From a virus: a stretch of DNA of 43,922 nucleotides. Of this stretch, positions 12,400 to 37,671 are shown one piece after another. Every line of letters starts with the position of its first letter. Position 1 is the first letter of the stretch. The stretch spans positions 1 through 43,922 of IMG/VR virus record IMGVR_UViG_3300037225_000162, one strand, 5' to 3'. The notes beneath the pieces were generated by a model. The model worked only from the letters and a program-made list of their open reading frames with translations. It ran no database searches and was not told where the DNA came from. The translations under genes and the position numbers were made by a program.

Positions 12400-12521
12400 C
12401 TTTTTCTCTCCTTTCGTTTTCTTCGCGTTCTTCCCTCAGTATTTTTATCGCCGAGGGCTTCCATGCGTTTTTTAAATATTCGTCTGTCGCGTTTTGCTTC
12501 TTCGTCAATTTCTTTCGTCAT
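12396..12521 (-). CDS. 41-residue highly basic peptide, coupled in lysis cassette
   Basis: The ATG at 12521 overlaps the transglycosylase stop (ATGA), and its own stop overlaps the next gene's ATG (ATGA at 12396-12399). The peptide (MTKEIDEEAKRDRRIFKKRM...) is strongly charged and ends in a run of Arg/Lys. The double overlap suggests real, coupled translation. A longer in-frame start at 12623 lies deep in the transglycosylase gene and is unlikely. Function unknown. Confidence 0.5.
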   Translation of the reverse strand: MTKEIDEEAKRDRRIFKKRMEALGDKNTEGRTRRKRKERKR

Positions 12522-13408: not shown

Positions 13409-14494
13409 TTAGTACCAAACCGTCACAAGTCCGTTTGCGCCTACATATCCGACGCCTGCCCCTAATGATGCTTTGCCGCCGCCGCCACCGCCATATAATC
13501 CGCCAGGATTTCCCCCTGAACCGCCTTGACCATATCCATTGCCAGAGTCTCCGCCCGCGTTGTAATTATTAGTTGATCCGGCATTTACAAAGGCTACAAC
13601 TTGCAATGTGTAACGGGACATGGCCGCTCCACCCGCGATGTTTCCTGTCGAATAAGTGCCACCTACTCCGCCCGATCCTCCATTAGCCGTAACATATGAG
13701 CCGAAAGAAGACGCTCCACCGTTGCCGCCTGTTCCCGCGCTTGAAGCTCCCGCCGCACCACCGGTACCTATCGTTACAGCAACCGTTTGAACGCTTGAAG
13801 GTATAACCACAGGCATATAAACAGCAGCACCTCCACCGCCGCCACAGCCGCCATAACCACCATTTCCCCCGCCACCACCGCCACCTGCTCCGACTGCCAA
13901 GACATGAACGACAATGCTCTGTCCAGATCCATACATTGGATTTGTCCACGTTCCCGATGAAGTAAAAACTTGTTGTCTTAATCTGTTATTATCCGCGTAG
14001 GCCGTTGTCGCTATAGCTGTTGTGTTATTTCCCGACGCTTGAGTAATTGCGACGCCCCCGCCGCTTCCACCAGCCCCGATGCGTAAATCCGTAATATTAG
14101 AGTTTATAATTGAAGTCTGACTGACTGATAAAGCTATTTGCGCCACTGGCATTTTACTGATAGGAATCGCCGGAAGTGAAGGGCTTCCCGCCTCAGTGCC
14201 CGTTATGACAGAAATTGCCGCGGTCACGGCATCAATAACCACAAGATCAAGGCGCGGATTGCTGGTGGGCGCCGTGATAGTGCCAGTGTTTTGAGCGTTT
14301 TGGCTGACAATAGACGAGCCTACAAGCAGCGAACCGGCGTCAATCGTAATGGTCATATTCGGCGTGTCTTGCGCGTGAGGCGCAAACATTGCCGCGATCC
14401 TTGCCATGACGCTGATAGAAGCATTAATATTATTCTTGTAGGTTGCTGAATCTTGCGACGCATGGTCTGGCTGTACGAATTTTGCTACTGTCAT
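13409..14494 (-). CDS. Glycine-rich tail tip/adhesin protein
   Basis: 361 residues. The N-terminal part (1 to about 150) is a beta-rich virion-attachment domain. A short segment (ASGNNTTAIATTAYADNN) resembles that preceding tail-fibre tips. The C-terminal half is extremely Gly-rich (GGGGGGGNGGYGGCGGGGG and repeated GG-x-GG blocks), as in T-even gp38-type adhesins, where Gly-rich strands form polyglycine-II bundles that bind receptors. It lies directly downstream of the J-like tip gene, the expected site for a receptor-binding protein. Function is inferred. Confidence 0.65.
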   Translation of the reverse strand: MTVAKFVQPDHASQDSATYKNNINASISVMARIAAMFAPHAQDTPNMTITIDAGSLLVGSSIVSQNAQNTGTITAPTSNPRLDLVVIDAVTAAISVITGTEAGSPSLPAIPISKMPVAQIALSVSQTSIINSNITDLRIGAGGSGGGVAITQASGNNTTAIATTAYADNNRLRQQVFTSSGTWTNPMYGSGQSIVVHVLAVGAGGGGGGGNGGYGGCGGGGGAAVYMPVVIPSSVQTVAVTIGTGGAAGASSAGTGGNGGASSFGSYVTANGGSGGVGGTYSTGNIAGGAAMSRYTLQVVAFVNAGSTNNYNAGGDSGNGYGQGGSGGNPGGLYGGGGGGKASLGAGVGYVGANGLVTVWY

Positions 14495-14504
14495 ATTTCT
14501 CTCC

Positions 14505-17500
14505 TTAAATTCCTTCGGCTTTCACGTTGGCAACTCCGGCCACGGAAACGCCTGAATTATTATAAATTATTACGACGCAACTATTTGCAGTTACGCCAGC
14601 GGACACGTTGGCGGTATATCCCGTTGACCCGACTACTGTAGCAATGACATTCGGCGGCGCATTAAAAGCCGGTGAAAATGTAATGGTCGTTCCGCCAACG
14701 TCAATAGAAACATTATTAAAATTCTGAGTTGTTTTATTCGCGTCCAGAGTCGGGATAAATTGAGTGATAACTGCCGTTGGGTCGGCCAAAACAAATTCAA
14801 ATTGGAAATTGCTGTCGTAGAGATAGCCGATTGTCCACGGCACAAATCCCGGATAGCTGCCGCCAAAAATATGATAGTTTAATTCTATTGATGGGGAGGC
14901 GCCGCTTGAAGCTGCCAAAGCATAAGCTCTGACCATTCTATCGCGCCCCAGGGCAATTTCAGAGGCTTGGAAACTTCCAGAGGCGTAGGGATTCGGTACA
15001 AGTTCGTCAAATGTATTCCAGTCATCAGCTGCCGCCACGCCCTGAGATTTAAGCGTTATTTTCCCGTCCCATGTAATGACGATATTCGATCCGGTGCCTG
15101 GCCATCCCAAGGTTGAAAGATCAACGCCACCGGCAACAATAGCAGACGTAGAAACTACATTGAGGGAAGTAGAGGACGGAGTGACAGAGTAATTTCCTGA
15201 GTAATCTATGGCGGCGATATAAAACGTCCAGTTTCCAATGGGGACATTGGCCGTGACCAAATGAGATCCAGCCTCTACTTTCGTTATGATAATTCCGTTA
15301 TTCCAGTTTAAAGATCCATAAGCCGTATATCGTATTTCATAGCCGTCAACATTTTGGTCTGTGATATTATCCCATGTGAAAGCCACAAAATCGCCGCTTT
15401 GAACCGCTTTAAATCCCGATACATTGGCCGGATAGGATAAGCTGTTTGCAATGACATACGAATAAGGCGTAACATCTGCCAAGGATTGTTTGTTGAGTTG
15501 ATATTTATTGAAAGAGCAGAATTTAATAAAGATCGTCTGGCCGAGTTGAGTTTTCGTGAATGGATACTTAAAAACGGTATCATCTACACGGACAAACGGG
15601 CTGTCGATCGCGTGACTGCTTATCGGCGAATTATAAGCGCCGCGCCTCAAATAAGTAAGATCGTATTGATAAGTTCCTGTCAAAGTGGCCGTCTCAAAAC
15701 TGACCAATTCATTATTGAGCAAGCAAAGCGTGATAAAATTATCAGCGTCAGATTGAATCCCGGAAAGCAACGTGCCTTTACTGGTCGTCAGGTCAACCGA
15801 TAAGGCATCTGTGGTGTCTGGATCCGTCCTAACGGGAAGAATAGCGGTTAAAACGCCATATCTTGAACCGCCGTAAACAGTCCCGGCAAGCTTATAGGTA
15901 GTTCCGTCAGTGCTGATATAGACATCGCATCCGCCCCAATTTTCACCGCCTGAAACCGCAGCCCAAACTTCATATCCTGAGGACGTTAGAATGCCAGGCG
16001 CATTAAAAATATAAGGTGTGTTGACACTGCCAGGTTCAATATTCGTATTGGTTATGAGTCCTGCGGGGCTTTCATGGGTATTTTCTATAACGTTCCCCAT
16101 TCCTTCGGGAAATTCTTCGGCTGTTATTTTCCGGTTAAAACTTTCATCCTCTTCAATTTCGATAATCCTTACAGGGAACTTATTTAAGCCAAGTCCTGAA
16201 TCTGTCAGTGTGATAATATCCATGCACTCTAAGAGGTCGTAATTATATTTTAGAGTGAATTCATATCTATTTTTAGCATAAAGATTTTTCTGGCCGTTCA
16301 ACTGAATAACTTTTTGAGCAATTCCCATCTGGCAAATATCCTGATACTGCCTTGTGTCATCCGGCCGGCGCATGTAAAGATCGATATTCCCCTGATCCAT
16401 CCACCCGGCAATCCCGGTATTATAAGAATTCGCCCTGTCTGTAAATTGAGTACGGTAATCATTATAGCTGTCTGCAGATGACTTTCGCGTAACGGTAATA
16501 GGGAGTTGTCCGGTATCGGCGACAAAATCATCATCCATCAAATCATAAAGAGGCGTTAAGTCCGGTGTCCATGTCGCGCCGTTTGCGGTCATTGCCGTAT
16601 CGCCATAAGTCTTAAATTGAAGCGTTTTCCCGTCATGCGGAATACAGGTTGAGAAAGATTCCTCTAAAATAGAATCGATATAGGAAGAAAGGCTCTGTTG
16701 GGCAGTAGCCGCCACGCTTAAAAGAAGGTTCGCAGCCAAACACCAATTTGCATAATCGGTAACATCGAGAGGGAAATTCGCATAGATCCCAAAATGGACG
16801 TTGGTGATCATTTGCGTAATTATCGTTGCCGGGTTAGCGTCCTGCATATCAAGTTGGCATTGAATGATGACGTTATTGCCTTGATCGCCGGAATTGAAAT
16901 AATAAATCCCGGCATTCGTTCCGGTTCCAATGGAATATTGACCCGTGGATGGATTGCTGCCAACTTTCGTTAAAGAAATTCCTGTCGCCTGATAAGTGAC
17001 CCCGATATCAGCGACATAGATTTCATAGGGGCTCACGGTCACGGTATTATCTTCAGCTATCGTATATACGGCTTTACTCGCTTGCGTTCCGGATAATCTG
17101 TTTAATCCCTGAACTTCAAAACTAGTCTGCGGCAAGGTATTTGATGACCCTAAATCAGCGTTTGGGATAGCGCAATAAGCAATCCCTGGATAAGCAAGAG
17201 CCTGTGAAAGATGGTTCGTTATTAAATATCCCCACGGTAATTGAGGATAAGCGCCAAGGCTAATAACCATATCCGAAGACGGCGCGGATAAAACAGCTTT
17301 GCCATTCCATACCTGCCCTATGCCTACTATCGGCCCTTCGCAAATACCCATCTGATAAGACGAATAATATTCATAAGACGAAACGCCGCCTTTGCCACCA
17401 CCGCCTTTGCCGCCTCCGCCAGATGAAACAGCCTGAGCCTGAAAATCACCGGCCCAAATAAGATTTCCCGTAATCCTTTGAGTGCCCAATATAACAGGAA

Positions 17501-17588
17501 TGCAAACGCCTTGCGTAGAGGTCTGAATCCTTATTGACCCGTAAGGGGTAGGTGTCTCTGTTGATATACTGTTTCCGCCGAAACTCAT
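14505..17588 (-). CDS. Tail tip / host-specificity protein (J-like, GTA gp15-like)
   Basis: 1027 residues. The N-terminal region (SIRIQTSTQGVCIPVILGTQRI... then GICEGPIVGIG and WNGKAVL) is typical of phage tip attachment proteins of the lambda J / GTA type, with a Gly/Lys linker at about 60-70. A beta module near 185-250 (DIGVTYQATGISLTKVGS ... GQYSIGTGTNAG) matches one in the tail tube protein. A fibronectin-III-like domain lies around 720-800 (FVAFTWDNITDQNVDGYEIRY), and the C-terminal part is beta-rich. It would close the tail and contact the host. The four upstream genes are its usual GTA-like partners. Confidence 0.82.
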   Translation of the reverse strand: MSFGGNSISTETPTPYGSIRIQTSTQGVCIPVILGTQRITGNLIWAGDFQAQAVSSGGGGKGGGGKGGVSSYEYYSSYQMGICEGPIVGIGQVWNGKAVLSAPSSDMVISLGAYPQLPWGYLITNHLSQALAYPGIAYCAIPNADLGSSNTLPQTSFEVQGLNRLSGTQASKAVYTIAEDNTVTVSPYEIYVADIGVTYQATGISLTKVGSNPSTGQYSIGTGTNAGIYYFNSGDQGNNVIIQCQLDMQDANPATIITQMITNVHFGIYANFPLDVTDYANWCLAANLLLSVAATAQQSLSSYIDSILEESFSTCIPHDGKTLQFKTYGDTAMTANGATWTPDLTPLYDLMDDDFVADTGQLPITVTRKSSADSYNDYRTQFTDRANSYNTGIAGWMDQGNIDLYMRRPDDTRQYQDICQMGIAQKVIQLNGQKNLYAKNRYEFTLKYNYDLLECMDIITLTDSGLGLNKFPVRIIEIEEDESFNRKITAEEFPEGMGNVIENTHESPAGLITNTNIEPGSVNTPYIFNAPGILTSSGYEVWAAVSGGENWGGCDVYISTDGTTYKLAGTVYGGSRYGVLTAILPVRTDPDTTDALSVDLTTSKGTLLSGIQSDADNFITLCLLNNELVSFETATLTGTYQYDLTYLRRGAYNSPISSHAIDSPFVRVDDTVFKYPFTKTQLGQTIFIKFCSFNKYQLNKQSLADVTPYSYVIANSLSYPANVSGFKAVQSGDFVAFTWDNITDQNVDGYEIRYTAYGSLNWNNGIIITKVEAGSHLVTANVPIGNWTFYIAAIDYSGNYSVTPSSTSLNVVSTSAIVAGGVDLSTLGWPGTGSNIVITWDGKITLKSQGVAAADDWNTFDELVPNPYASGSFQASEIALGRDRMVRAYALAASSGASPSIELNYHIFGGSYPGFVPWTIGYLYDSNFQFEFVLADPTAVITQFIPTLDANKTTQNFNNVSIDVGGTTITFSPAFNAPPNVIATVVGSTGYTANVSAGVTANSCVVIIYNNSGVSVAGVANVKAEGI

Positions 17589-18038
17589 TTACTCATCCTT
17601 AAAAATATTATGCCTGAATAACTTATAAACTCTTTTCGACAATGGCATCAATTCTGCATTGCCATAACAAACGCATCTGTCCGGCACTGACGCATGGATA
17701 ATAACGGGCCAGTTAGTCACGATGCCGCCGTGAGAGAAAATACGGCCATGTTTGTAAAGAATAGCATCGCCCGGTTGAGGCTCCGTAACTTCAAAAGCAT
17801 GCGCCTGAATTGTCTGCATGAACCATTCTTCGCTCCGGTGCATCATAAAATCAGGCGGATAATGAGGCGGTCTTAAATGAGGGATCAGGCCGCAGTTGGC
17901 ATACGTTTCTATGAGCAAGAAACCGCAGTCCACGCCAACGCCTTTGACATGGGCTTCGTGGTGCCATTTCGTATGAAGCCAACTTTTTACTTCCTCTATT
18001 ATTTTCTGCTGCAAATCTTTTTTCTCTATATCGATCAT
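17589..18038 (-). CDS. Tail-associated NlpC/P60 cell-wall peptidase
   Basis: 149 residues. Catalytic triad candidates are C38 in GVDCGF, H103 in SHGGIV and H115 in IIHAS. Fold and size match the NlpC/P60-type phage wall peptidase (GTA gp14-like). It is a virion tail-tip enzyme that opens peptidoglycan cross-links during DNA entry. The start overlaps the preceding gene's stop by four bases, and the next gene (tip protein) ends adjacent. Confidence 0.88.
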   Translation of the reverse strand: MIDIEKKDLQQKIIEEVKSWLHTKWHHEAHVKGVGVDCGFLLIETYANCGLIPHLRPPHYPPDFMMHRSEEWFMQTIQAHAFEVTEPQPGDAILYKHGRIFSHGGIVTNWPVIIHASVPDRCVCYGNAELMPLSKRVYKLFRHNIFKDE

Positions 18039-18916
18039 GTTGCTGTCTCCGGCGAAGGGATGAAAGGGAATCCCCTGAATCTGATATATCCATTCGCATC
18101 AAAATTATTGAATTTGTTTTTGCAGGTTGACCTCTGATGATCACATCCCGGGTAAATTGTGAATGTATCGCCGCTTGCCGGGATATTCGGCAGCGCAATA
18201 ATTAAACTGATTAATCCATCCGCATTATAATGTTGATTTATGGTCCGGGTTTCGCCGGTATTCGCGCCGCTGGTAAAATAGATAACTCCGCCGTCAAAAT
18301 AATCATCTGCCTGTGATAGATTTGTATAGAAAGACATAAGGGAGTTTCCGGCATAAGTGGCAACCGCGCCGCTAGACGTGAAAGAAGCCTTGCTCAATCC
18401 ACAGGGTGAACTATATAATTGCCAGATACAAGTTGACTCGTAAAGATTAATCGGCCAATTCAAACCCAAAAGATAAGAATAACTGCTAACAGTGATTTCC
18501 GCGTGATCGCGTTCCATGATAATTTCATTAACAATCAGACCGTCAAATTTCGTTATACTTCCCTTGTACGTCCCGCCGAAATAATCAAAATAAAGGCGTT
18601 CAAGTTTTACTTCGGCATAGTCAAAAATCCCATTATGGCAAGCGGCGACAAAGCCAAGACTGCCTATAGTCAATGTTGTCGGGTAGATGTTTAATTTCAT
18701 TTCAGAAACATCCGTCCCGCATTTTTCTGTTATTGCGCCGCGCCTCATAAGAAAACCGGACGAAATAAAGGTATATCCATTGTAAACAATATCCTGATCG
18801 GCTGTCGTATAATATAAGACCGTCCCATCGGCCAAAGTGATCGTATAGACTTCAGCGATTGCAGCCTGATTGTATTGCGCTAAAAAACTTTTTAAGCCCG
18901 ATGTTGCTGTTTTCAT
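18035..18916 (-). CDS. Tail tip hub protein, DUF2163/BR0599 family
   Basis: 293 residues. The N-terminal half (SFLAQYNQAAIAEVYTITLADGT) and the C-terminal block (CDHQRSTCKNKFNN, then FRGFPFIPSP) are diagnostic of the DUF2163/BR0599 tail proteins (GTA gp13-like), which form the hub between distal tail protein and tip. Cys residues near the C-terminus (CDH...C) may bind a metal or iron-sulfur cluster, as found in the GTA hub. Stop/start overlaps with both neighbours show coupled synthesis. Confidence 0.87.
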   Translation of the reverse strand: MKTATSGLKSFLAQYNQAAIAEVYTITLADGTVLYYTTADQDIVYNGYTFISSGFLMRRGAITEKCGTDVSEMKLNIYPTTLTIGSLGFVAACHNGIFDYAEVKLERLYFDYFGGTYKGSITKFDGLIVNEIIMERDHAEITVSSYSYLLGLNWPINLYESTCIWQLYSSPCGLSKASFTSSGAVATYAGNSLMSFYTNLSQADDYFDGGVIYFTSGANTGETRTINQHYNADGLISLIIALPNIPASGDTFTIYPGCDHQRSTCKNKFNNFDANGYIRFRGFPFIPSPETAT

Positions 18917-19545
18917 AATTTATCTTGTATAAGTGTGACTTTTTTTAGTTCCCAAAGATTGTACATAAATTGAGAAAAACAATCACTATCGCCCTCTTGA
19001 TATTCAACAAATCTGACGCGCCGATAATACGAAAAATCAACTGTTACGGCCACGCCCGGAGCCGGCGCATTGACAAACGTCAAAACACCACTCAGATAAT
19101 TATTAACAGAATAAGAGCTATGATTTTGAACTACGCCTTGCAGATATACTTCGAGAACGGGCAAGGTTGTGCCGCGAGGCTGAATGTCTGTTATAATGTC
19201 AATCCAGCCGCCGTATGTCCGGTAAAGTTGGAATACTTTATTGTTTCCGTCACCTGTCCCGACCTGTTGGGCGGTGACAATGCAATCCGATGGGTCAATA
19301 TAGAGAAATGAATCAAACGCTCCCTGGCGCGACAAATAAAAGCCCATGAGGGTTTTAAGTTCATTATTAGCCGTATCATCCCTCAAGACTTCATAAGACA
19401 GTTCATATTCGTAAATCGGATATTGAGACAGGGAAATGCGGGACTCTTTAAGGCTCACGACTCTTTGAGTAACAGTATTAAATATAGGAATCTTTTTTTG
19501 ATCCCACATAAGCCCGGCAAGTTGAGGAAATACGAGATTGCTCAT
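18913..19545 (-). CDS. Distal tail protein, DUF2460 family
   Basis: 210 residues. N-terminal FPQLAGLMWDQKKIPIFNT and central FLYIDPSDCIVTAQQVGTGDG match DUF2460 (GTA gp12-like distal tail) proteins. It forms the ring joining the tail tube to the hub. The start overlaps the tape measure stop by one base (TAATG). Confidence 0.87.
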   Translation of the reverse strand: MSNLVFPQLAGLMWDQKKIPIFNTVTQRVVSLKESRISLSQYPIYEYELSYEVLRDDTANNELKTLMGFYLSRQGAFDSFLYIDPSDCIVTAQQVGTGDGNNKVFQLYRTYGGWIDIITDIQPRGTTLPVLEVYLQGVVQNHSSYSVNNYLSGVLTFVNAPAPGVAVTVDFSYYRRVRFVEYQEGDSDCFSQFMYNLWELKKVTLIQDKL

Positions 19546-21977
19546 TAGAACCTCACATGAGAGTTGCGTAACTGTTTTTTCATACTCTTGATTATTGTCG
19601 CGCCTTTCCTGTCAAAGAAAGAACCGGCGTCAAGAGCCTGAATATAGGTATTTCCACCGCCTCCGCCTGTCATGCCGCGCACTCTGTTTGCCAAGTCCTT
19701 CGGCAATACCATTTCCTGTTGATGTAATTGAGCAACCGGATTAACGCCGGACGGAATATCATAACCGCCTGCCGCCGAAATTCCACTGGCAAAACTCATG
19801 ACCATTGCGAGCATTTCCGCAGCAGCAGCAGCAGCCAAAGCAGGGCCGACATACGGGATGCTTGCCTGAGAGGAAGCCGCGCCCGCCGCCGCGGTACTGG
19901 CATTTATGGTGATTTCGGATATCGCATTTGGTATTTCTATGGCTTTGCTTTCTGCTGAAGCTGCCGCCTTAATTGTCGTAAGCTGATTATTTGTTGCTAG
20001 ACCTAACGCGACTTTTAAACCGGCCCATACCTTATCCCAAGCGGCTTCCATTGCTCCGTATAGTTGAGTTTTTTGGAATTTCTCAGCTAGGTAGCCAACG
20101 AATTCATTGAGCGGGTCCGTGACCATTATTTTTATGAATGTGTTTAAGAGTGCTTTCCAAATAGTATTTAAAGCCTGCTGAAACGTCTTTGTATGCATCA
20201 GCATATCAGTTAAAGACTGGTCAAAAGCATTAGACATTGGTTTAAGCACGTTCTGCCATGACTTTTGAATATCAACATCCGTCTTTTGGGTATCTTTTAA
20301 AACTGCGGCCAGATATTTTTCATTAATCTTTTTCAGTTCATCGGCAATTTTTTGAGCGGTGCCAGGCTTCTTTTCTTCAATAGCTTTCCATGCCTCAAAA
20401 TATTCCATTTCCTGAGATTTTAAATCAGCTTCGAGTTGAAGTTCCTGATGTAATCTCTGAGTAGCTGAAATATTGCCAAGGGAATATTGCCTGTCAAGTT
20501 CTGCTTTTTTATCCTCTGTTGCCTTTTGAGCAAGCGCCATGTCTGTACTGTATTTTTCATTAGCGGCGGCAAGTTCTTCGGATTGCTCTCTTTTTACGGC
20601 ATTGTAAATTTCGTTTAAAACCTGTTCGCGGAGCTTCTTTTCCTTGTCGCCATTGCCCTTTATCAATGACAATTTTCTTTCCCAAAATGCCTGTTGTTCA
20701 GTTACGGCCATTTCGTTAAAGACACGCTCCCCATTGATAATCTGCATTTGCTTTGACTCAAGTTCAGCTTTCCACTCTTCCAGTTTTCCTTCAGCGCCTT
20801 TTGGTATGATGGGTATATCAGGTTCATTTTCGCCGCCCTTTTCGAGGCTGGGCAGCTTCATTTTCTTTTGGGATCCCATCCATATTTGAGCGAGTTTATC
20901 AGAGGTCTTTTGAGCGTTGGAAACCATTTGATCGCCCATTGCGTTAAGATCACGGTTAATATCGGCGCTAATTCCCTTCATGGCTGCGCTGGCGCCGGAA
21001 AAATCCCTATGTACCAGTTTGTTCACCGCCGAACCTAACCCGCCGAACAAATTAACAGATCCCTTAACAAAACCTATGATGAGCGTGAAGACTTCCTGAA
21101 CAACAAACTTTAAGCCTTCAAACAGTGAAATAACGGCCTGTATCGGGCCAAGAAGAACTTGAAAACCCACCCCCATTTCTTTACTGCCGGTGACCATATC
21201 CTGAAAATATTCAGCAAGGCCGGCTAAAACAGGAATGAGCTCCATGCCGATTTTTCTTTTAAGGCCGTCAGTAGTGGCCGTCAGTAACTTTTCCTGCTGT
21301 TCAAATTTTGCAGCCGCCTTAACGTCATCATCGGACATAATAACGCCCAAATCTTTGGCGGTTTTCATCATTTCCTTAACGCCGTCACTTCCCATGTTTA
21401 AAATAGGAATAAGGTTTAATCCGGACCGGCCGAAGAGCGCCACGGCCTCCGCGCTTTTATTCGCGCCGTCTGCATGCTCTTTGAAAGCATCCGCAATCCT
21501 CATTAAGAGTTCTTCCGTGTTTAAATTGGAAAGGTCTTTCATGGAAATGCCAAGTTTTTGGAAGGCGCCAATAGCCTTTTCGTCCCCTTCTTTGGCGTGA
21601 ACAATTTCCTGCGAGAATTTACGCATACCGGTTGTTAAGGTTTCAGCACTACCACCGGCAAATGAAGCGGCGAAAGCCCAACCTTGAAGCGATTGAACGC
21701 TCATGCCGGTCTTTTGAGAGGCCAGTTCCATATTGTGAGCGTATTCGGCTGTCTTTTCGGCCAGACCATAAATCTTTTCAGCGGCCATGCCGACCATTAC
21801 AGCCTGGCCGAGCATATTAAAAGCCTTGCCAATGCTGGCGACCTGCTCATTTAATCCGGCAATAGATTCTTTCATTCGGATTACGGACTGCTCAACAGCA
21901 TTAGCCGCGGCCTGCGAGCCGTCAACCACTCCGGTAATCTGAGCTCCAAATTTTACATCGATAGAATTATCTGCCAT
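19545..21977 (-). CDS. Tail tape measure protein
   Basis: 810 residues, the longest tail gene after the tip. The N-terminus (about 1-230) is the typical tape-measure domain with QKTGMSVQSLQGWAFAA and LFGRSGLNLIPIL; a hydrophobic region follows (about 265-320). A long charged coiled coil lies at about 390-540 and an Ala-rich C-terminus with GGYDIPSGVNPVAQLHQQEM and VLPKDLANRVRG ends it. It sets tail length and takes part in DNA injection; the size predicts a tail of roughly 120 nm using the usual 0.15 nm per residue. Located directly after the chaperone genes, as in lambda. Confidence 0.92.
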   Translation of the reverse strand: MADNSIDVKFGAQITGVVDGSQAAANAVEQSVIRMKESIAGLNEQVASIGKAFNMLGQAVMVGMAAEKIYGLAEKTAEYAHNMELASQKTGMSVQSLQGWAFAASFAGGSAETLTTGMRKFSQEIVHAKEGDEKAIGAFQKLGISMKDLSNLNTEELLMRIADAFKEHADGANKSAEAVALFGRSGLNLIPILNMGSDGVKEMMKTAKDLGVIMSDDDVKAAAKFEQQEKLLTATTDGLKRKIGMELIPVLAGLAEYFQDMVTGSKEMGVGFQVLLGPIQAVISLFEGLKFVVQEVFTLIIGFVKGSVNLFGGLGSAVNKLVHRDFSGASAAMKGISADINRDLNAMGDQMVSNAQKTSDKLAQIWMGSQKKMKLPSLEKGGENEPDIPIIPKGAEGKLEEWKAELESKQMQIINGERVFNEMAVTEQQAFWERKLSLIKGNGDKEKKLREQVLNEIYNAVKREQSEELAAANEKYSTDMALAQKATEDKKAELDRQYSLGNISATQRLHQELQLEADLKSQEMEYFEAWKAIEEKKPGTAQKIADELKKINEKYLAAVLKDTQKTDVDIQKSWQNVLKPMSNAFDQSLTDMLMHTKTFQQALNTIWKALLNTFIKIMVTDPLNEFVGYLAEKFQKTQLYGAMEAAWDKVWAGLKVALGLATNNQLTTIKAAASAESKAIEIPNAISEITINASTAAAGAASSQASIPYVGPALAAAAAAEMLAMVMSFASGISAAGGYDIPSGVNPVAQLHQQEMVLPKDLANRVRGMTGGGGGNTYIQALDAGSFFDRKGATIIKSMKKQLRNSHVRF

Positions 21978-28943: not shown

Positions 28944-29229
28944 TGGTTGTCTCCTTGCATAATTCTTTTAAAAGTTTCAGTTCCCTTATTACTATGTCGT
29001 GCGTTTCTCTGATTAATTTGGCCTGCTTCCCGCCCTCAATCTTTGAGACCTTTGCCAGAATAGCCAGCGCGATTAATTGAATGGCCGTCTGAGAAAGCCA
29101 CTGTTGCCATTCAAGGATTGTCTGCGGCAACTGATACCAAAGAGGGACCACCGCAATAAGAACAAAAATAATAATGCAGGCGTCCGTTCCGAGGCTGTCA
29201 GCAATTAATGTCATGGCCTTGTCAATCAC
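28891..29229 (-). CDS. Small membrane protein between portal and protease
   Basis: 112 residues. Two hydrophobic helices (about 16-32, DACIIIFVLIAVVPLWY, and about 45-60, SQTAIQLIALAILAKV) are followed by an amphipathic helix (IRETHDIVIRELKLLKELC). Overlaps the portal gene and the protease gene at its two ends. A membrane protein inside a head operon is unusual; possible roles are superinfection control or lysis, unproven. Confidence 0.6.
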   Translation of the reverse strand: MIDKAMTLIADSLGTDACIIIFVLIAVVPLWYQLPQTILEWQQWLSQTAIQLIALAILAKVSKIEGGKQAKLIRETHDIVIRELKLLKELCKETTNEPENSGSKNIFTDYAH

Positions 29230-31481
29230 TCTTCCTCTCCTACAACCGGGAAAATATCGCAGGCGCAGTTCGGGTGCGCTGGCGGAGCATCATCGCCGCT
29301 TGGAAAATCATCATCCAGAGCAATAACTCCGGCATCCGCATTATCATCACACTCATCATCATTGTCGTGTTCGCTGCCGACAACCCATTCTTTGCCAGTA
29401 ACGACTCCACTTTCTTTGTATGCCGCAAGATTACCATGCTGATCTGCATAGGCGGTTTCCGTCCGGGCAATCATCCGGGCGCGGTATTCGCTGAAACCGG
29501 TTGAATCCATAATGTTCTGTTTGAGCGTTTCCACGCTGTCGCCATTCTTAATGGAATCCGTTATTGTGGAGTTTAGTATATCCCTTGTGCTGTCAGTGAT
29601 TGCCCATTCAGCGTTGGGATTTTCAACCAGTTCACCGTCAACATATTTCATGCCCACCATTTCAGCGGCACGTGCTTCGGCATAGCCCGCCGCTTGCTGA
29701 TTTAAAAGGTTCGTCATTGCTTCGGGGACGTCAAAATTAATTTGTGCCAGAGCGACTTTCGTCCCATCGGCATATATTTTTTCAAGAGCTTCCTTTGTCG
29801 GATCAATTAACAATGACCAGCCTTTAAAATCAATATCAGCCAGAACCTTGGCAACCTGTTCTTCGGTTGTCATGTCACCGGCCACCATCTTAAGATTATT
29901 GGCAACTTGGTCGGCTATATCCGCGCCCGCTATTTCCAGAAAGTCTGTGATTTTAGATTCCAGTTTGTCCCGTTCTTCGACTATCGAATCCCGTTCGCGG
30001 TCAATCGGCGGTATTTTTTTGGCTGTTTTTCTCATAACGAGTTTAACTTTTTTATCTTTTTTTTTTGGATCATTCGGCGGCACTTTCCCGCCCTTCTTAT
30101 CCGGATTATCCGGATTAGTCCCAGGCGCGTTGGTCGGCTCCCCTACCATCGGAGGCAGCGGCTTTTCGGGTGCCGGTCCTTCCATGCCCATGCGCTCGCG
30201 CACTTCGTCAGGAGAGATAACGTATTCCTGTAGATAGACCTTATCAATTTCAGACTGGACTTGGGGATCGACTTCCTTTTCATCCTTCCATTTAAACTTT
30301 AAATCCTGATATCCGAAATACTTCCAGATAATCCGATTCCAAAAGTTTGTTTCCCAAATCATATAGGGCTGCAATCCTTCTTCTTCGGCCTGCTGCTTGG
30401 CCGTGTCTGCGGTTGCTCGGTTCATTTGCTTAATAAAAGCTGTGGGCGGCAGAGAGAAACAGAAACAGATTATACGGGCAAGCCACTCATCGTAATCATC
30501 TTTGAGGGCAGCTTGCTTAATGTCATAGGGCTGAACGCCGGACGGCACAAACTTGGCGACACGCCTTTCATTTACATCCCCCTGCATTAAGGAGTTCCAC
30601 CATGTTTGAAAATCTTTAATCTGGCTCGGATTCCAGTCTTCGGGACAGGTGAAAATAAGGTCTGGCAAATTCCCGTCGGTATAATAACTTAGTTGGTGCA
30701 TCTGGCGGCGCAATGCAATATTTACTGTAATAATCACCTGCTCTACAGGCGAATAGCCGTAAGCGCGATATGATCTTAAATTGCGCGGCATATAAATCAA
30801 TTCATCAAAAGAATAATCCACCGCAGGGACGCCCTTAATTTGCACCTGATAGGCCGGATCGGGAGGCATTGGCGTGCGCCCTTCACCGTCCAGTTTCCGG
30901 TTGATCATGCCACCGTCCATAATGTCGAGAGAGTAAAGACCGCCGCCTTTGGTCATGCGAGGGTAAACGGTGGGAGCGTCAATAACCAGTAAGTCTTCAT
31001 GCAGCATCCGGCGCCATGTAGCAAAATCATGCTCTTTGTCCGGATATTGCAAAAAGTCTTCCACTTCCTGACAGCGCTTATCCGCTTTGGCTTTCTTTTC
31101 GGGATCTCTTGGAATGATATTAAATTCCAGTTTTGCTAATTGGTCTTTTCGGGTTTCAATGGCCAGCCGCATCAAATCATATCCGTCCGCCATGGCGCGA
31201 AGTTGCGCTGCCGACACATTAGAATCCTGACGAGGCTTATAGATAAGATTCCATCCGGTTTGATAGTCAAACTGCCGGCCCTGCATGCCGTCCTGGAACA
31301 TTGGCGGGATAGGCTGCATGGGAGAAAAGGGAGCAGTATCAACGGAGGCGCTTGGAGTAACGCCCCCGCCGATAATATAACGGACTCCCGTTACAAGACG
31401 ATCTACAAGGCCGGCTTTGGGAGGGTTCAATGCCCGTAGAATGTCTGCTTTAAATTTCTCAATTTCTTTAGCGTCTGCCAT
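29226..31481 (-). CDS. Portal protein fused to MuF-type head morphogenesis domain
   Basis: 751 residues. The N-terminal two thirds (about 1-450) carry portal motifs (LRAMADGYDLMRLAIETRKD and YSFDELIYMPRNLRSYRAYG), followed by a Pro/Lys-rich linker (about 450-510). The C-terminal domain has FSEYRARMIARTETAYADQH and ends in DDAPPAHPNCACDIFPV, the signature of MuF/SPP1 gp7 proteins. Normally two adjacent genes; here they are one. The portal forms the DNA gate; MuF proteins are injected or aid head assembly. The start lies 14 bases after the secreted-protein cassette. Confidence 0.9.
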   Translation of the reverse strand: MADAKEIEKFKADILRALNPPKAGLVDRLVTGVRYIIGGGVTPSASVDTAPFSPMQPIPPMFQDGMQGRQFDYQTGWNLIYKPRQDSNVSAAQLRAMADGYDLMRLAIETRKDQLAKLEFNIIPRDPEKKAKADKRCQEVEDFLQYPDKEHDFATWRRMLHEDLLVIDAPTVYPRMTKGGGLYSLDIMDGGMINRKLDGEGRTPMPPDPAYQVQIKGVPAVDYSFDELIYMPRNLRSYRAYGYSPVEQVIITVNIALRRQMHQLSYYTDGNLPDLIFTCPEDWNPSQIKDFQTWWNSLMQGDVNERRVAKFVPSGVQPYDIKQAALKDDYDEWLARIICFCFSLPPTAFIKQMNRATADTAKQQAEEEGLQPYMIWETNFWNRIIWKYFGYQDLKFKWKDEKEVDPQVQSEIDKVYLQEYVISPDEVRERMGMEGPAPEKPLPPMVGEPTNAPGTNPDNPDKKGGKVPPNDPKKKDKKVKLVMRKTAKKIPPIDRERDSIVEERDKLESKITDFLEIAGADIADQVANNLKMVAGDMTTEEQVAKVLADIDFKGWSLLIDPTKEALEKIYADGTKVALAQINFDVPEAMTNLLNQQAAGYAEARAAEMVGMKYVDGELVENPNAEWAITDSTRDILNSTITDSIKNGDSVETLKQNIMDSTGFSEYRARMIARTETAYADQHGNLAAYKESGVVTGKEWVVGSEHDNDDECDDNADAGVIALDDDFPSGDDAPPAHPNCACDIFPVVGEEE

Positions 31482-31494
31482 TTAGATAACCTTT

Positions 31495-31998
31495 TTATTG
31501 ACCGATACAGATATAATTTACCGTGTCTGCCGCGTTTACTCCGATTGCAAAAGTTATATTATTTAAGCTGTTAACCGTAACAGTAACGGCATGCGCCGCT
31601 GTAATATCCGTTGCCGTACATATTTCAGCGTTTGCCGTAAAGGTCGTTCCGGTAATCGTATTTGATGCTGCGTTCGCGCCAGTGCCTACCATCGTCAAAG
31701 GGCCAGCGTATATTTTAGCGTTCGCCCATGATGTTGATGTTGAAACCGTTGCTGTAGTAAATACTGTGGGCAAAGGTTTGTAACCGGCTTTTGTGAAATC
31801 ATTGGCGTAAGTTTCGGGGACGCTGACGGTGCCGCTTGAAATCGTATAACCGTTGCCGTCACGATCCCACGCGTACTGTACGCCGCTGGGCGCAACAAAG
31901 GTCTGATTCGCATAAACCATAAAAGCGGTAAACATAACCGCGATAAATACCGCCATTAACAGAACATTGAACTTGCTGAATATTTTTTTCATTTTCAA
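31495..31998 (-). CDS. Exported beta-rich protein (cassette gene 5)
   Basis: 167 residues. Residues about 1-30 are a signal peptide (KKIFSKFNVLLMAVFIAVM ... VYA) with cleavage after A. The mature part is small, Thr/Ala-rich and beta-type (FVAPSGVQYAWDRDG ... ANAEICTATDITAAH). It shares no clear family. It is the last of five signal-peptide genes between terminase and portal and ends 13 bases before the portal start, so it is co-transcribed with the structural genes. Confidence 0.7.
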   Translation of the reverse strand: MKMKKIFSKFNVLLMAVFIAVMFTAFMVYANQTFVAPSGVQYAWDRDGNGYTISSGTVSVPETYANDFTKAGYKPLPTVFTTATVSTSTSWANAKIYAGPLTMVGTGANAASNTITGTTFTANAEICTATDITAAHAVTVTVNSLNNITFAIGVNAADTVNYICIGQ

Positions 31999-32049
31999 AT
32001 CTCCTTTTAAAGTTATTATTGTGTTCAGGGTTTCCCCTCTGGTTTATTG

Positions 32050-33420
32050 TTATTTTTTAACCACTCCGCCGCTTAGAACATAAGACGGTGTGGAAGCCGT
32101 ACTCGATGCCGTAAAATTCTCCCCTGTCAAATTACCCGTTGAAATCGTCGCTGAAATATTTGCCGGACTGAAAGTATAGCCTGTCTTTGAGGGCGTTAAA
32201 GTATAACTGCCTGCCGATAATCCCGTAAAGCTGTATGTCCCATCACCTGCCGTTGTAGTGGAAGTCTGTCCCGTACAGGCCACTGTCACCCCTGATTGAA
32301 CCGCACCGCTTACCGTGCCGGAGATGGTGTAGGTGGCTGTGCCACTCCAATTTAAAGTTGCCAGAGTTGTTGAGCTCGTACCGGCTATTTTAATCTGTAT
32401 AAAAGCCACTGTACCGGCAGTTAATGAAAATGGAGTGGTATAAGTCGTCCATTCTCCGCCTGACGTTCTTGTGAAATTGCTCGCAGAAGTTCGATAATAA
32501 ATGGTTGGGCTGCCCGTTCCCGTCAATGTGATTGAAATAGTATTGGCATTAGGCAAGATTGAAAGAACAGGGCTTACCGCAGAATCAGACGACCCTAAGG
32601 TCAGCGTGCCGCCTTTGATATTTCCGGTTATAGAATCAGTAGTACCACCGACCAAAGAGCCACCAGTAATTACCCACCATGAAAAACTGTCATGCGTAAT
32701 CGAAGGATAACCGGAATGCCCCCAATCCCTTGAACGGGTAGGTATCGATTTATGAAACATTAAATAAGCTAAAACAATATCACCTGCGGCAGAAATGTGA
32801 ACCGAATCGCACGTGCTTGGATAATTATTATAATCATCGTAAGAAGTATTATTCATACTCATATCCCGATAGGTTCCGGCCATATAGCCATGAATTGTAT
32901 AAAATAAATCTTCCAGTAAGGCGTTCCATATGGCAATTTTTTGCTGCACGGTTGGGGATACTTCGGCTACTGTACCGACACCATAGTTACAACCTAATGC
33001 ACCCGTACCTATTCCACAGATAGGTGTTATTTGAGAAGCTACAAAAATAGCTCCTGAATTTATAGCATCAGTATTTAATGTACTATAATCTGATAACCAT
33101 GTAGCTGTGTCAGTAGGAGAACAACCTCCTCGCAGTTCGTTTACACCCCAAATAGAATATACTTGTTGTGGCAAGTAAGACGAAAGGTATGTTGAAAAAC
33201 CTGGAAGCCCGTTTGACGAGCCTATGCACGTTCCGCTAACGGCCTGATTCGTATAGGTGGATAATCCCAAGTCTGTTATTAAGTAAGATGCTGGGCCGTC
33301 TGTAGCACCGCAATAACCAGCAAATAAACTGTTCCCAACTATAAGAACTTGTGCTTCGGTAGCATAACATAATGAAGTTGTCACCAACAAAAATAAAATT
33401 ACACCAAAAAGTCGTTTCAT
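32050..33420 (-). CDS. Secreted SGNH/GDSL hydrolase with beta-sandwich domains
   Basis: 456 residues. Signal peptide 1-20. SGNH residues in order: S31 in VGNSLFAG, G63 in AVSGTC, N94 in WGVNEL, D205 and H208 in CDSVHISA, so the catalytic tetrad is complete. Domain end is about 225. About 250-350 is beta-rich, and about 365-435 is a carboxypeptidase-regulatory/SpaA-like fold (TISGTVSGAVQSGVTVACTG, SYSFTGLSAGSYTLTPSKTGY-like). SGNH enzymes de-esterify acetylated sugars or lipids. In phages they trim O-antigen or capsule, normally as virion enzymes without signal peptides. Export here suggests modification of the host surface. Confidence 0.82.
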   Translation of the reverse strand: MKRLFGVILFLLVTTSLCYATEAQVLIVGNSLFAGYCGATDGPASYLITDLGLSTYTNQAVSGTCIGSSNGLPGFSTYLSSYLPQQVYSIWGVNELRGGCSPTDTATWLSDYSTLNTDAINSGAIFVASQITPICGIGTGALGCNYGVGTVAEVSPTVQQKIAIWNALLEDLFYTIHGYMAGTYRDMSMNNTSYDDYNNYPSTCDSVHISAAGDIVLAYLMFHKSIPTRSRDWGHSGYPSITHDSFSWWVITGGSLVGGTTDSITGNIKGGTLTLGSSDSAVSPVLSILPNANTISITLTGTGSPTIYYRTSASNFTRTSGGEWTTYTTPFSLTAGTVAFIQIKIAGTSSTTLATLNWSGTATYTISGTVSGAVQSGVTVACTGQTSTTTAGDGTYSFTGLSAGSYTLTPSKTGYTFSPANISATISTGNLTGENFTASSTASTPSYVLSGGVVKK

Positions 33421-34275
33421 TTATTTGCTCCCATCAATGCCATGCGTGCAAATACTAGCTAATTCAATTGTGCTGAATGAGCGATTAAAAACACCAAAAG
33501 CATCGTTATATCCTTGCATAGGGCCGAAACATGCAGTAGAGTTTTTCAATGACAAAACTCCCAGAGCGAGAGTTGATAAATATGATGGGCTTCCGCTCCA
33601 AGACACCGCCGTTGCATCTTCATGAACGACACAATCCGATATAGCCGCATAGTATATGTGTAAATGTGTCCCATCCCACACACCTGCAATTAAATATTCA
33701 GTCGTTTGACTTAATGCCGTGCCTCCCGTCACGATCTGTTCCGTTCCTCCATTGTCAAATATCCCTAAAGCTGCGTGACTAGTATTATCCAGATAAAGTA
33801 ACCAGCCTTTAGTGGATAGGTCGGATAACTGCAATAATCTTGCGTAACTGGCTCCCGGCGCAGATGTCATATTAATAAAGCCGAGTGCTGTCATTGCCGA
33901 ATAAGTCACTTTACCGGGGAACGCAGCCGAAAGGTCTGCACCGGCTCTGTACGCACACCATGCAGTTGATGTATTAGCAGAATAAGTTCCATATTGCACA
34001 CCCGTTGTTGAACTATATACAGCTGTTCCAGATAATAAGGTAAGGTCATTCCCCAAGATAGATGAATCTTTTAATCCGTTTGCATTTTCAAAAGAATATA
34101 CAGCTTGTACGTTAGCGTCTGTAACAAAATTAGTTCCTTTTGACCCCGGCCCAGTCGCACCGCCCCCACCGGTATATCCCATCATCCCCGGACTGGCATA
34201 GGATAAGCAGGCAAAGTATTCTACAGCGAAAATTATTATCAGGGGAATTAAGAATATGAATAATAGTTTTTTCAT
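33421..34275 (-). CDS. Secreted LamG/concanavalin-like lectin protein
   Basis: 284 residues. Signal peptide 1 to about 27 (LLFIFLIPLIIIFAVEYFAC ... SYA). A Gly-rich linker (GGGGATGPGSKG) precedes a concanavalin-A-like jelly-roll fold starting at NVQAVYSFENANGLKDSS, with typical strand/loop pattern through GVWDGTHLHIYYA and AFGVFNRSFSTIELASI. Such domains bind sugars or complement enzyme domains. It lies directly upstream of the SGNH gene by two bases, so the two probably act together. Confidence 0.75.
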   Translation of the reverse strand: MKKLLFIFLIPLIIIFAVEYFACLSYASPGMMGYTGGGGATGPGSKGTNFVTDANVQAVYSFENANGLKDSSILGNDLTLLSGTAVYSSTTGVQYGTYSANTSTAWCAYRAGADLSAAFPGKVTYSAMTALGFINMTSAPGASYARLLQLSDLSTKGWLLYLDNTSHAALGIFDNGGTEQIVTGGTALSQTTEYLIAGVWDGTHLHIYYAAISDCVVHEDATAVSWSGSPSYLSTLALGVLSLKNSTACFGPMQGYNDAFGVFNRSFSTIELASICTHGIDGSK

Positions 34276-34278
34276 AGT

Positions 34279-35784
34279 CTATCTCCTGACCCGCCAATTA
34301 ATTGTCATGTTTGCGGCAGGTGTTATGTTCGCCGCTGTATTATTGCAGAGCAACCAGTCAACATTTCCCGAACCGACATAACTCATAACAGCCAACATAT
34401 TAGGCGGAGTAAATCCGGCAAGAGCGGAGTAATTACCGCCAAAAGACCAGTCAACTATATCACCGGAAACTACCGAAGCATTTGCAGCGGTCAAAGTAAC
34501 GCAAGCATTTGCCCCGATTGTACCCGTAGGAATATTGGCACTTCCCGAAGCAATACTGACAAGGAAAGCTCCGATGGTGTTTGTGGCTGCTGCGAGGGCT
34601 GTTGCTACGCCTGTGCCGAGGCCGGTAATGCCACCGACTGCAACAGCGTTAGCACCTGCAACATTACCTGATACATTTCCACCGGCTACTGAGTTTGCTG
34701 CTGCTGCTGTACCTGCATTAACAGCATAGGCAACTGACAAATTAGAACCTGTGCCACCATCAACAATCGTATTCGCTGCTCCTATCTGTGCAAGGTGTCC
34801 CGTTGTTGGAGAACCTGAAAAAGCTAATGAGTTGGCAACGTCGTTTACATTCAAGGCAACATCACCCGAACCCAAAAGAGCATGACCGGAAACCGTTTTG
34901 ATATTCGTACCTGAAATTAAAGTACCCTGAAAACCGGAGCAAGTTCCGCCGGCCAAACAGATCGCGGAGGCCGTTCCATTAACGTCAACTTCGGGAACTC
35001 CATTTAAAAACAAAAATCTGTATTGACCTGAAACCGGCGTGTATGATGTATTGTTTCCGAGGCCAAGATAATAACTGCCGTTTGATCCTGACCCTAAGAC
35101 AGTCACGTTATTAATTTTAATAACCGCACCAGTCGGTAAGAGTAAATCTCCCGAACTGTCGGTAAGCCATTGAGAAGTCGTTAATGTGTTTGCCGTGCCG
35201 TTTCCCATTGGGATAGCGTATTGAGTCGCGGCTAAAGAGCCTAGAATTGTACCGCTGCCAGAAGGTGTTTGGAAAGCCCATGCCGAACCATTCCAGTAAA
35301 GATAACCGACTGAAAGCGATACAGCAGCCAGAGCGTCTAATGTAGAATTATGAGCCTGAACTGTTGAGCCGATGGAAGCAGATTTAAGAATTGTCGAATC
35401 ATAGCCCTCAATGGTCACGCCGACATCCGAAGACGTGTAATAGCCCAATAAGGTTTCCATTGCCGCGTAGTTTGCCGCTTCAATAAGCGAAAGCCCGTTC
35501 GCGCTTGCTGTGATAGCGCATAAATTCCCGGTGCATCCAGTGCCGCCGCCAACAAGAACCACTCCCGTACCGGTGCCGGTATAGATTAAATTCGCATTGC
35601 TGTCTTTGCAAAGCGGCCCTATGACCGGATAATATTGAGCCTGGTTGCAGTTGGTGTCGGTGACTATTCCGGTGCCGGTGCCTGAACTTCCCATGTCAAA
35701 AGAGCAGGTATAAGTTTGAGCGATTGAAAAAAGAGGGAAGGATAAAAAAAATAATGTCAGAAAAAGAATAAGTGATTTCTTCAT
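34279..35784 (-). CDS. Secreted tail-fibre-like protein
   Basis: 501 residues. Signal peptide 1 to about 22 (MKKSLILFLTLFFLSFPLF...). The mature protein is Gly/Ala/Thr-rich and beta-type. TLISGTNIKTVSGHALLGSG is the repeat of many phage tail-fibre proteins; the following Ala-rich part (AVGGITGLGTGVATALAAAT) and a C-terminal beta domain (FTPPNMLAVMSYVGSGNVDW) complete a fibre-like plan. Phage fibre proteins assemble in the cytoplasm and should lack signal peptides, so the export signal is unexpected. It might be displayed on or outside the host. Confidence 0.75.
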   Translation of the reverse strand: MKKSLILFLTLFFLSFPLFSIAQTYTCSFDMGSSGTGTGIVTDTNCNQAQYYPVIGPLCKDSNANLIYTGTGTGVVLVGGGTGCTGNLCAITASANGLSLIEAANYAAMETLLGYYTSSDVGVTIEGYDSTILKSASIGSTVQAHNSTLDALAAVSLSVGYLYWNGSAWAFQTPSGSGTILGSLAATQYAIPMGNGTANTLTTSQWLTDSSGDLLLPTGAVIKINNVTVLGSGSNGSYYLGLGNNTSYTPVSGQYRFLFLNGVPEVDVNGTASAICLAGGTCSGFQGTLISGTNIKTVSGHALLGSGDVALNVNDVANSLAFSGSPTTGHLAQIGAANTIVDGGTGSNLSVAYAVNAGTAAAANSVAGGNVSGNVAGANAVAVGGITGLGTGVATALAAATNTIGAFLVSIASGSANIPTGTIGANACVTLTAANASVVSGDIVDWSFGGNYSALAGFTPPNMLAVMSYVGSGNVDWLLCNNTAANITPAANMTINWRVRR

Positions 35785-35791
35785 GTCAACC

Positions 35792-36112
35792 TCACTCGAA
35801 AATGATTATGTATGATAGAACCGCTGAACCGCTTGCCGTCACTGCATACCAACTGCCAGTTTTCCCGCATTTCGATAAATGCTCTCCCGGTGCCAGTGGC
35901 GTCCCTGTCGTTGTCGAAACTCCCGGATCATTGGCGATATAGATGGTTACTGAACTTGATGTGTTTTTAAACAGGCGGCATGCCGTAGTATTGGCCGGCT
36001 CAGAATAAATAACGGCGGCGGTGCTGGTAACCGTGACCTGATTATTAACTGCGAAACAGAGGCTTGATATAAGCAGTATTATCGCCATCGTTAAAAAGAT
36101 TATTTTCTTCAT
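35792..36112 (-). CDS. Small exported beta-domain protein (cassette gene 1)
   Basis: 106 residues, start after AAGGAGATTTAACC. Signal peptide 1 to about 21 (KKIIFLTMAIILLISSLCFA). The mature part is a compact beta domain (TVTSTAAVIYSEPANTTACR ... PGVSTTTGTPLAPGEHLSKC) with two Cys that could form a disulfide. It resembles small phage head or tail decoration folds by pattern only. First gene after the cassette promoter. Confidence 0.7.
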   Translation of the reverse strand: MKKIIFLTMAIILLISSLCFAVNNQVTVTSTAAVIYSEPANTTACRLFKNTSSSVTIYIANDPGVSTTTGTPLAPGEHLSKCGKTGSWYAVTASGSAVLSYIIIFE

Positions 36113-36173
36113 GGTTAAATCTCCTTAATTGCGCTGCTGTTAGGTTGTAAATATTAATTTATCTTGCGGCTTA

Positions 36174-36203
36174 AGTATAAAGTGAGAATTTACGGGAATG
36201 CAA
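36174..36203 (-). promoter_or_regulatory. Sigma70-like promoter of the exported-protein cassette
   Basis: On the - strand TTGCAT (36198-36203) and TATACT (36174-36179) are separated by 18 bases, with start expected some 50 bases before the cassette's first ribosome site. This promoter lies between terminase and the cassette and could express the secreted proteins independently of the late transcript. Confidence 0.6.
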
Positions 36204-36243: not shown

Positions 36244-37671
36244 TTATTTTTTGGGGTTTTTGAGGTTCGCTTGCTCCTGAATCCAGTCCAGCCAGCCGGT
36301 AGAACCCTCATTGAACTCCGCAAAAGCATCAGACCCGGAGTCCACCTGATCATCATTTGCGCCGTTTGGGAAGAATTGATATTCAGATTTAAGGGCCTCA
36401 TTCCACGGAGCTTTCAGCATAACAACATTTCCAACATTCATTTGCGCGGCGAATGGTTGAGCCCTGACAATCTTATCACCGGAAATCGGCATTGAGTGAA
36501 CCGGATAGCCCGAAAGAAGTTTTGTCAGTGATTTAATTTGAGACTTTCCGGCCTGCCCGGGATCTTGCGGCAGTCGAATCTTACAATCCTTACCATCTCC
36601 CATTGCTGTATTTTTAAGAGTGCTCTCGACATCCTCGGGGCTCCATTGACCACGTGCAACATCGGCAATGATAAAACGTCCATCAGGCATCTTCCCAAGT
36701 TTAAATCCTGCCGTATAATCGCCATCGTCTTTACTCGCTGCCAAATCCCAAGCCCTGACAAATTTAGTCCCGGCCGGCACAGCTTCAAAGATTTCCATTT
36801 TGTGAGGATTGAAAATATTGCCTTCGGGAGCGCAGGGGCTTTGCTGATACTGTCCCGCAAAAGTATAGGGGCTTGCCTGTTTCATCAGCTGCAGCATATC
36901 GACCGTATGTTTCTCGGGCCACAAAGCCGATCCATCAGGCAAAAGCGTTTCAAGACAAACATGATCCCATTTTTCCCCATTACCACCGGCAAGAAGCCAT
37001 CCAGCAAGGTCTTTCTCGTGTAACCGCTGCATGATTAAGATAATAGGAGTATGAGGGGAATTCTTGCGGCTTTCAAGCGTATTTTGGAACCAGTCTATCA
37101 CGCCTTCACGGACAACATCAGACCGGGCTTCATCGGCTTTATGCGGATCATCAATAATTATGGCTCCGCCGAATCCTTCACGGAGTTTCCCCGCGCCATA
37201 TCCTGTTATTGTACCGCCGATACCCGTAGCATAACATACGCCGCCCTGGGTAGTCCGCCATTCGTCTTTAGCCTGGCTATCTGTACGAAGCGGCACGTTA
37301 GGGAATATATTTTTGTAGGCGTCATGGGAAACAAGTTCCCGCGCCTGCCATGAGTTATTAGCTGCCAGCCGGCCCGAATAGCTGGTATGAATAAATTCAG
37401 CATCCGGGACGCGGCCAAGACACCACGCAATAAAATTAATAACAGCTAACTCGGTCTTTGAATATCGCGGCGCCACGTTGATGATAAGGCGGCTACATTC
37501 CCCATTAAATACCCGCATGAGTGCATCGGATATGATTTTATGCTGGCGTCCTTTCAGCCAGTTGAAGCCCTTGCGCTGTAAAAACATCCAGCGGGTAAAG
37601 AAATAAAAATCCTCTCGCGCCGTGAGCCGGACAACTTCCATTTCCTCACTATCTTTGTCATATTTTATCAT
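36244..37671 (-). CDS. terL: Terminase large subunit
   Basis: 475 residues. ATPase: Walker A-like APRYSKTE (67-74, deviating from GxGKT as in many TerL), Walker B AIIIDDPHK (170-178). Nuclease: FVRAWDLAASKDDGDYTAGF, then DPGQAGKSQ and NGANDDQVDSGSDAF with the acidic residues expected for the RNase-H-like fold. It packages DNA through the portal and cuts the concatemer. It is transcribed leftward from the divergent region shared with the + strand island. Its usual small subunit lies 1.7 kb away beyond the island. Confidence 0.93.
   Translation of the reverse strand: MIKYDKDSEEMEVVRLTAREDFYFFTRWMFLQRKGFNWLKGRQHKIISDALMRVFNGECSRLIINVAPRYSKTELAVINFIAWCLGRVPDAEFIHTSYSGRLAANNSWQARELVSHDAYKNIFPNVPLRTDSQAKDEWRTTQGGVCYATGIGGTITGYGAGKLREGFGGAIIIDDPHKADEARSDVVREGVIDWFQNTLESRKNSPHTPIILIMQRLHEKDLAGWLLAGGNGEKWDHVCLETLLPDGSALWPEKHTVDMLQLMKQASPYTFAGQYQQSPCAPEGNIFNPHKMEIFEAVPAGTKFVRAWDLAASKDDGDYTAGFKLGKMPDGRFIIADVARGQWSPEDVESTLKNTAMGDGKDCKIRLPQDPGQAGKSQIKSLTKLLSGYPVHSMPISGDKIVRAQPFAAQMNVGNVVMLKAPWNEALKSEYQFFPNGANDDQVDSGSDAFAEFNEGSTGWLDWIQEQANLKNPKK

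Follow-up and report, generated by a model that had tools for sequence, protein, structure and literature searches.

Results

Five genes with predicted signal peptides lie in a row between terL and the portal gene

The window, i.e. the whole stretch of DNA that was analysed, corresponds to a linear IMG/VR virus record, 43,922 bases long and possibly incomplete. It codes for a siphophage-type head and for a tail, some components of which are gene-transfer-agent-like (DUF2460, BR0599 and Rcc01698-type proteins). Five minus-strand ORFs, called here g1 to g5 and encoding 106, 501, 284, 456 and 165 amino acids, respectively, follow each other from 36112 down to 31495. Their upstream border is terL (36244-37671, minus strand; PHROG_38, E = 6e-100), and their downstream border is a gene for a portal-MuF fusion (29226-31481, minus strand; PHROG_2662, E = 5.9e-103; Pfam Phage_portal and Phage_Mu_F). 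Genes g1 to g4 are separated by 0-8 nt (about 7, 3 and 0), g4 and g5 by 57 nt, and g5 lies 13 nt from the portal gene. Each of the five has a recognisable ribosome-binding site. The GC content of the cassette, 0.44-0.47, equals that of its flanks, and a foreign insertion was rejected on this compositional ground.

The N-termini of the five products were analysed with a home-made signal peptide scorer, which takes into account the charge of the n-region, the hydrophobic core and the residues at -3 and -1. A call was positive if the score was at least 3.5 and no further transmembrane segment was present. Among 83 annotated E. coli K-12 genes used for calibration, eight were called (AphA, LamB, NrfA, MalE, MalM, YbgS, ModA and YbhC); all eight are exported, and there was no false positive among cytoplasmic or inner-membrane proteins. 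The original prediction of a Sec signal peptide on each of five consecutive minus-strand genes was borne out with this scorer: all five have a positively charged n-region, a hydrophobic core, an AxA-type cleavage site and no further transmembrane segment, with scores of 5.1-5.9. The predicted signal peptidase sites are, from g1 to g5, CFA^VN, SIA^QT, SYA^SP, CYA^TE and VYA^NQ. The scorer flagged no lipobox in any of them. When applied to both strands of the window, it retained only g1 to g5 and the SLT transglycosylase of the lysis functions (12518-13048, minus strand), which is thus the sole gene with a Sec signal outside the cassette. By our own arithmetic, the chance that five random genes among about 57 are contiguous is ~1e-5. 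Where a cytoplasmic N-terminal virion-attachment domain might stand, g1 to g5 have their predicted signal peptides, and no attachment family of Pfam or PHROG was matched. Export of the five products via Sec and signal peptidase I is therefore well supported, as far as prediction goes.

A promoter of its own, TTGCAT-18-TATACT, had also been proposed for the cassette. This sequence agrees with the consensus at 8 of 12 positions, and stronger sites are not overrepresented in the scan (28 found against 22 expected, sd 4.5). Being at chance level, it was dropped. Given the tight spacing of the genes among themselves and with the portal gene, g1 to g5 appear to belong to the late operon and probably ride on the late transcript.

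Domain content of the five products

In g1 (35792-36112, minus strand), the signal peptide (residues 1-21, 36050-36112) precedes a small beta-type domain of 85 residues with two cysteines. Residues 15-95 match PHROG_30212, a family of unknown function (E = 3.4e-9).

The g2 product (34279-35784, minus strand; signal peptide 1-22, 35719-35784) has a Cys-rich N-terminus and carries the motif GTNIKTVSGHALLGSGD. It had been described as fibre-like, a description based here on the motif 'SGTNIKTVSGHALLGSGD' and on its C-terminus, 30% identical (5.9e-8) to that of a 397-aa signal-bearing protein adjoining the portal gene of the related locus L020. On these two grounds, g2 is a candidate fibre-like protein; it matches no Pfam or PHROG family. 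A search of 195 Geobacter-class genomes for g2 found none.

Gene g3 (33421-34275, minus strand) encodes a signal peptide of about residues 1-27 (34195-34275) and a LamG/ConA-like lectin domain at residues 123-213. The match to Pfam Laminin_G_3 (E = 4.5e-5, 24.1 bits) falls just under the curated cut-off of 27.6, so that the predicted lectin keeps the status of a candidate.

The same applies to the hydrolase predicted in g4 (32050-33420, minus strand; signal peptide 1-20, 33361-33420). Its SGNH-like region (residues 28-213) gives a weak match to Pfam Lipase_GDSL_2 (E = 0.0022), under the cut-off. The GNSL, GVNE and DSVH blocks, which would correspond to SGNH blocks I, III and V with the catalytic Ser, Asp and His, are nevertheless all present and in order. 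A TTR-like CarboxypepD_reg domain follows at residues 365-433 (E = 2.8e-8). Among 195 Geobacter-class genomes, 29 encode relatives of this domain with up to 55% identity; of the relatives inspected, most sit on proteins with lipoprotein-type signals. A g4-type TTR-like C-terminal domain was also seen behind a GH43-like enzyme that adjoins the portal gene in L017 (10945-12813) and has no signal peptide. In L019, an ORF located between terL and portal (8908-9975) has an SGNH-like start (LFVVGQSN), also without a signal, and matches neither Pfam nor PHROG.

Finally, g5 (31495-31992, minus strand; 165 residues counted from the ATG at 31992) encodes a signal peptide (1-28, 31909-31992), a small domain reminiscent of the 'APxG' post-capsid family of phages, and a beta domain with two cysteines. 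It is similar to a signal-bearing protein of L068 (3377-3907; pairwise E = 2e-5). A clear membership of g5 in the post-MCP family was abandoned, the HMM match being weak (11.6 bits with filters off). Sequence searches of the PDB with g2 to g4 gave no usable match, and AlphaFold2 models made without alignment (pLDDT 53 for g1, 36 for g4) were too low in confidence for a fold to be read.

The terL-portal gap is a recurrent site for fibre-like genes

Related loci, designated by L-numbers, were gathered by similarity to the portal protein and to TerL. The view that terL and portal are normally adjacent and have been split here by an inserted cassette is only partly upheld. The gap is indeed shorter than 150 nt in many relatives, and in the window it does hold five genes. 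However, it contains fibre-like genes in 8 of the 68 loci where it could be read, and the gap between portal and protease or capsid does so in 13 of 103 (window included), so that the cassette sits in a place where phages of this lineage repeatedly carry fibre modules. Fibre-like genes devoid of signals occupy the terL-portal gap in L230, L246 and L003. The nearest host-linked relative is L103, a phage-like contig of a Geobacteraceae MAG, with 70% identity in TerL and 53% in the portal protein. Its portal-protease gap encodes signal-less proteins, including a member of the Gp80 'GP4 fiber I' family (E = 1.6e-42) and a PHROG tail-fibre member (E = 1.5e-29). From the link to L103 and the g4 domain, the host probably belongs to Geobacter-like bacteria.

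The same five-gene order, looked for in other phage genomes, was encountered neither in INPHARED nor in IMG/VR, the latter searched with peptide seeds for g1, g2 and g4 that detect close relatives only.

Signal-bearing fibre-like proteins recur near head genes

Near the portal genes of 104 related loci, signal-bearing ORFs were found 18 times in the sense orientation and once in antisense, the 18 including some lipoproteins or doubtful calls. L212, whose TerL and portal proteins are 68% and 50% identical to those of the window, encodes a single signal-bearing fibre-like protein of 411 aa exactly in the terL-portal gap. Beside the portal gene, one signal-bearing fibre-like protein is encoded in each of L010 and L030, two or three in each of L055 and L071 (third genes judged by eye), and one signal-bearing protein with a beta-helix-like sequence in L050. 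Two signal-bearing proteins follow the portal in L020, the first being the one that shares its C-terminus with g2. The g5-like signal-bearing gene of L068 also adjoins head genes. In L041, four signal-bearing genes (one of them judged by eye) stand in a row after the capsid gene (16151-20263).

Some of these proteins have unusual repeats. The L041 set includes a fibre of 852 aa, in which collagen-like GPQGPPG repeats and NGDFYIDT repeats occur. A signal-bearing fibre of L010 (5376-5960) has a repeat of the 'GDFYIDTxTGxxYGPK' type with a Cys at each end (GSCAGGNPAYIDTSTGYVYSCKNG), as if stapled by disulfides; the repeat is Cys-free in L041. In L046, a 346-aa signal-bearing fibre-like ORF runs in the opposite direction to the portal gene, on the minus strand (4983-6023 in reverse-complement coordinates).

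Signal peptides are not a general property of fibres. A search with the L212 fibre returned 32 other fibres sharing its repeats, and none of them has a signal peptide. Those homologues that were read from their start have ordinary cytoplasmic N-termini, many of the MAYQALGLGSxANDGTGDDLRTGG type. The idea that fibres bear such signals in general was thus rejected.

Cysteine content of the signal-bearing proteins

Mature g1 to g5 contain 1.72 Cys per 100 residues, versus 0.88 in the other structural proteins (p = 0.008, residues taken as independent). In the viral loci, signal-bearing fibre-like proteins have 1.59 Cys per 100 residues versus 0.79 for signal-less fibre-like proteins (p = 0.06 for density), and an even number of Cys is found in 13 of 16 of the former versus 27 of 62 of the latter (p = 0.01). 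Proteins g2 and g4 have odd numbers. This pattern points, with moderate strength, to oxidative folding with disulfides.

Discussion

Phage fibres are usually regarded as virion parts made in the cytoplasm. In the window, an entire set of proteins of fibre, lectin and hydrolase type is equipped with export signals and placed in an apparent late operon, and fibre-like genes with signals turn up repeatedly next to head genes in phages whose portals have diverged. The portal-flanking module of L103 (Pfam Gp80 'Podophage GP4 fiber I', PHROG_8469 tail fibre) resembles g1 to g5 as a portal-adjoining run of beta-rich, Ser/Thr/Gly-rich proteins, and differs by its virion-type N-termini devoid of signal peptides. 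The use of the same slot by relatives for either signal-bearing or signal-less fibres suggests that fibre parts became secreted proteins, and a descent of g1 to g5 from a fibre module is fairly supported by these comparisons. Our preferred reading, in which our confidence is about evenly poised, is that g1 to g5 are an exported version of the lineage's portal-flanking fibre and accessory module, acting on envelope glycans. The original proposal is thus supported in part. Its core, an exported, surface-acting set distinct from ordinary virion fibres, is favoured by the calibrated signal calls, the same-slot protein of L212, the signal-bearing fibre-like proteins adjoining head genes in distant relatives, the signal-less repeat homologues, the lipoprotein-type domain of g4 and the moderate Cys signature; a separate promoter is not supported.

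Under this reading, g1 to g5 would be transcribed along with the late head genes and made as preproteins, which would pass through the host Sec translocon and be cut by signal peptidase. Once matured, the five products, variously glycan-binding, fibre-like or hydrolase-like, would fold in the periplasm, probably with disulfides. Sec by itself delivers proteins to the periplasm only, so an action at the surface needs an extra step: the proteins might reach the outer surface or the medium through host secretion, or at lysis. Their most likely action there would be to bind glycans of the envelope or matrix and to de-esterify them; other phages could then be prevented from adsorbing, and progeny from sticking to debris or to the surface of the host. 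With their lectin-like, fibre-like and esterase-like character, the parts would fit roles in receptor masking, in the trimming of glycans and in progeny release, the masking and de-esterification roles being putative. The exported set is probably not the main adsorption device of the phage, since a probable ordinary tail-tip fibre without signal peptide is retained outside the cassette (13409-14494, minus strand; Gly_rich_2, E = 9e-7).

Two further readings also accept export. Proteins g1 to g5 could be the products of lysogenic-conversion or auxiliary metabolic genes, secreted for the benefit of the host, in adhesion or polysaccharide use, from genes residing in the late region. The g4 domain is common on host lipoproteins, and the beta-helix-like signal-bearing protein of L050 and the GH43-TTR protein of L017 (albeit without signal) would agree with such a role. 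Still, we hold it to be unlikely: the fibre-like content is not metabolic, the GC content of the cassette matches its flanks, a separate promoter is unsupported (8/12, chance level), and no integrase was present among the genes scanned, although a small Cro/CI-like regulator is encoded and the record is possibly incomplete.

Alternatively, the five proteins could be exported, fold outside the cytoplasm, and then join the progeny capsid or tail at or after lysis. The slot holds virion-type fibres in relatives, g1 to g5 sit within the late operon, and they resemble fibre and capsid-accessory domains. We find this rather unlikely, because the window retains a normal fibre, and because the fibre repeats of L212, placed elsewhere behind ordinary cytoplasmic N-termini, are found there behind a signal peptide. 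We know of no tailed phage that assembles virion parts in this manner, and that some tailed phages export fibres via Sec, oxidise them in the periplasm and attach them to virions at or after lysis seems to us quite unlikely.

Finally, that the N-termini are not signals at all but hydrophobic anchors of ordinary virion proteins staying cytoplasmic until assembly, as the location in the head operon might suggest, is very improbable in view of the full n-h-c organisation and the AxA-type site of each of the five N-termini, the calibration of the scorer (no false call among 83 E. coli genes), the 32 L212-repeat homologues without such a segment, and the Cys signature.

Among known systems, Llp of T5 is an established case of a phage protein exported to the envelope, where it blocks reinfection (PMC9586334). 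Llp and Cor are small periplasmic superinfection-exclusion lipoproteins acting on an outer-membrane protein (PMC9586334). Like them, g1 to g5 are encoded by a phage, and they would likewise be exported to work on the infected cell's envelope; in T5, the llp gene also adjoins that of the receptor-binding protein. The difference is that g1 to g5 are five non-lipidated, mostly larger proteins of fibre, lectin and hydrolase type, encoded in the late head operon. Phage tailspikes and depolymerases share with them glycan-binding and hydrolase- or esterase-type domains, but are assembled in the cytoplasm and attached to virions, whereas g1 to g5 have Sec signals. As for the TTR-like CarboxypepD_reg lipoproteins of the Geobacter class, they resemble g4 in the C-terminal domain, and g4 departs from them by its signal-peptidase I type signal and its SGNH-like domain.

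No account of signal-bearing fibre modules was found in open-access papers. If our preferred reading is correct, some 'tail fibre' annotations in environmental phages would have to be changed to secreted, envelope-acting proteins, and a new route would be available for studying phage-phage competition at the cell surface.

Other genes of the window

Three plus-strand regions of the window deserve mention. A 383-aa protein (683-1834), member of PHROG_21719, of unknown function, has about a dozen LRR-like repeats (NNQLTSLSVPEGIKTLYC). A low-complexity protein dominated by Ala, Tyr and Asp (AAAAYAAYAADAA...) is encoded at 30-644, where the repeat keeps several further frames open on both strands. 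Lastly, a pair of genes at 4469-8172, SbcD-like and SbcC-like by inspection (400 and 834 aa), adjoins a gene for a 356-aa PHROG_13782 protein.
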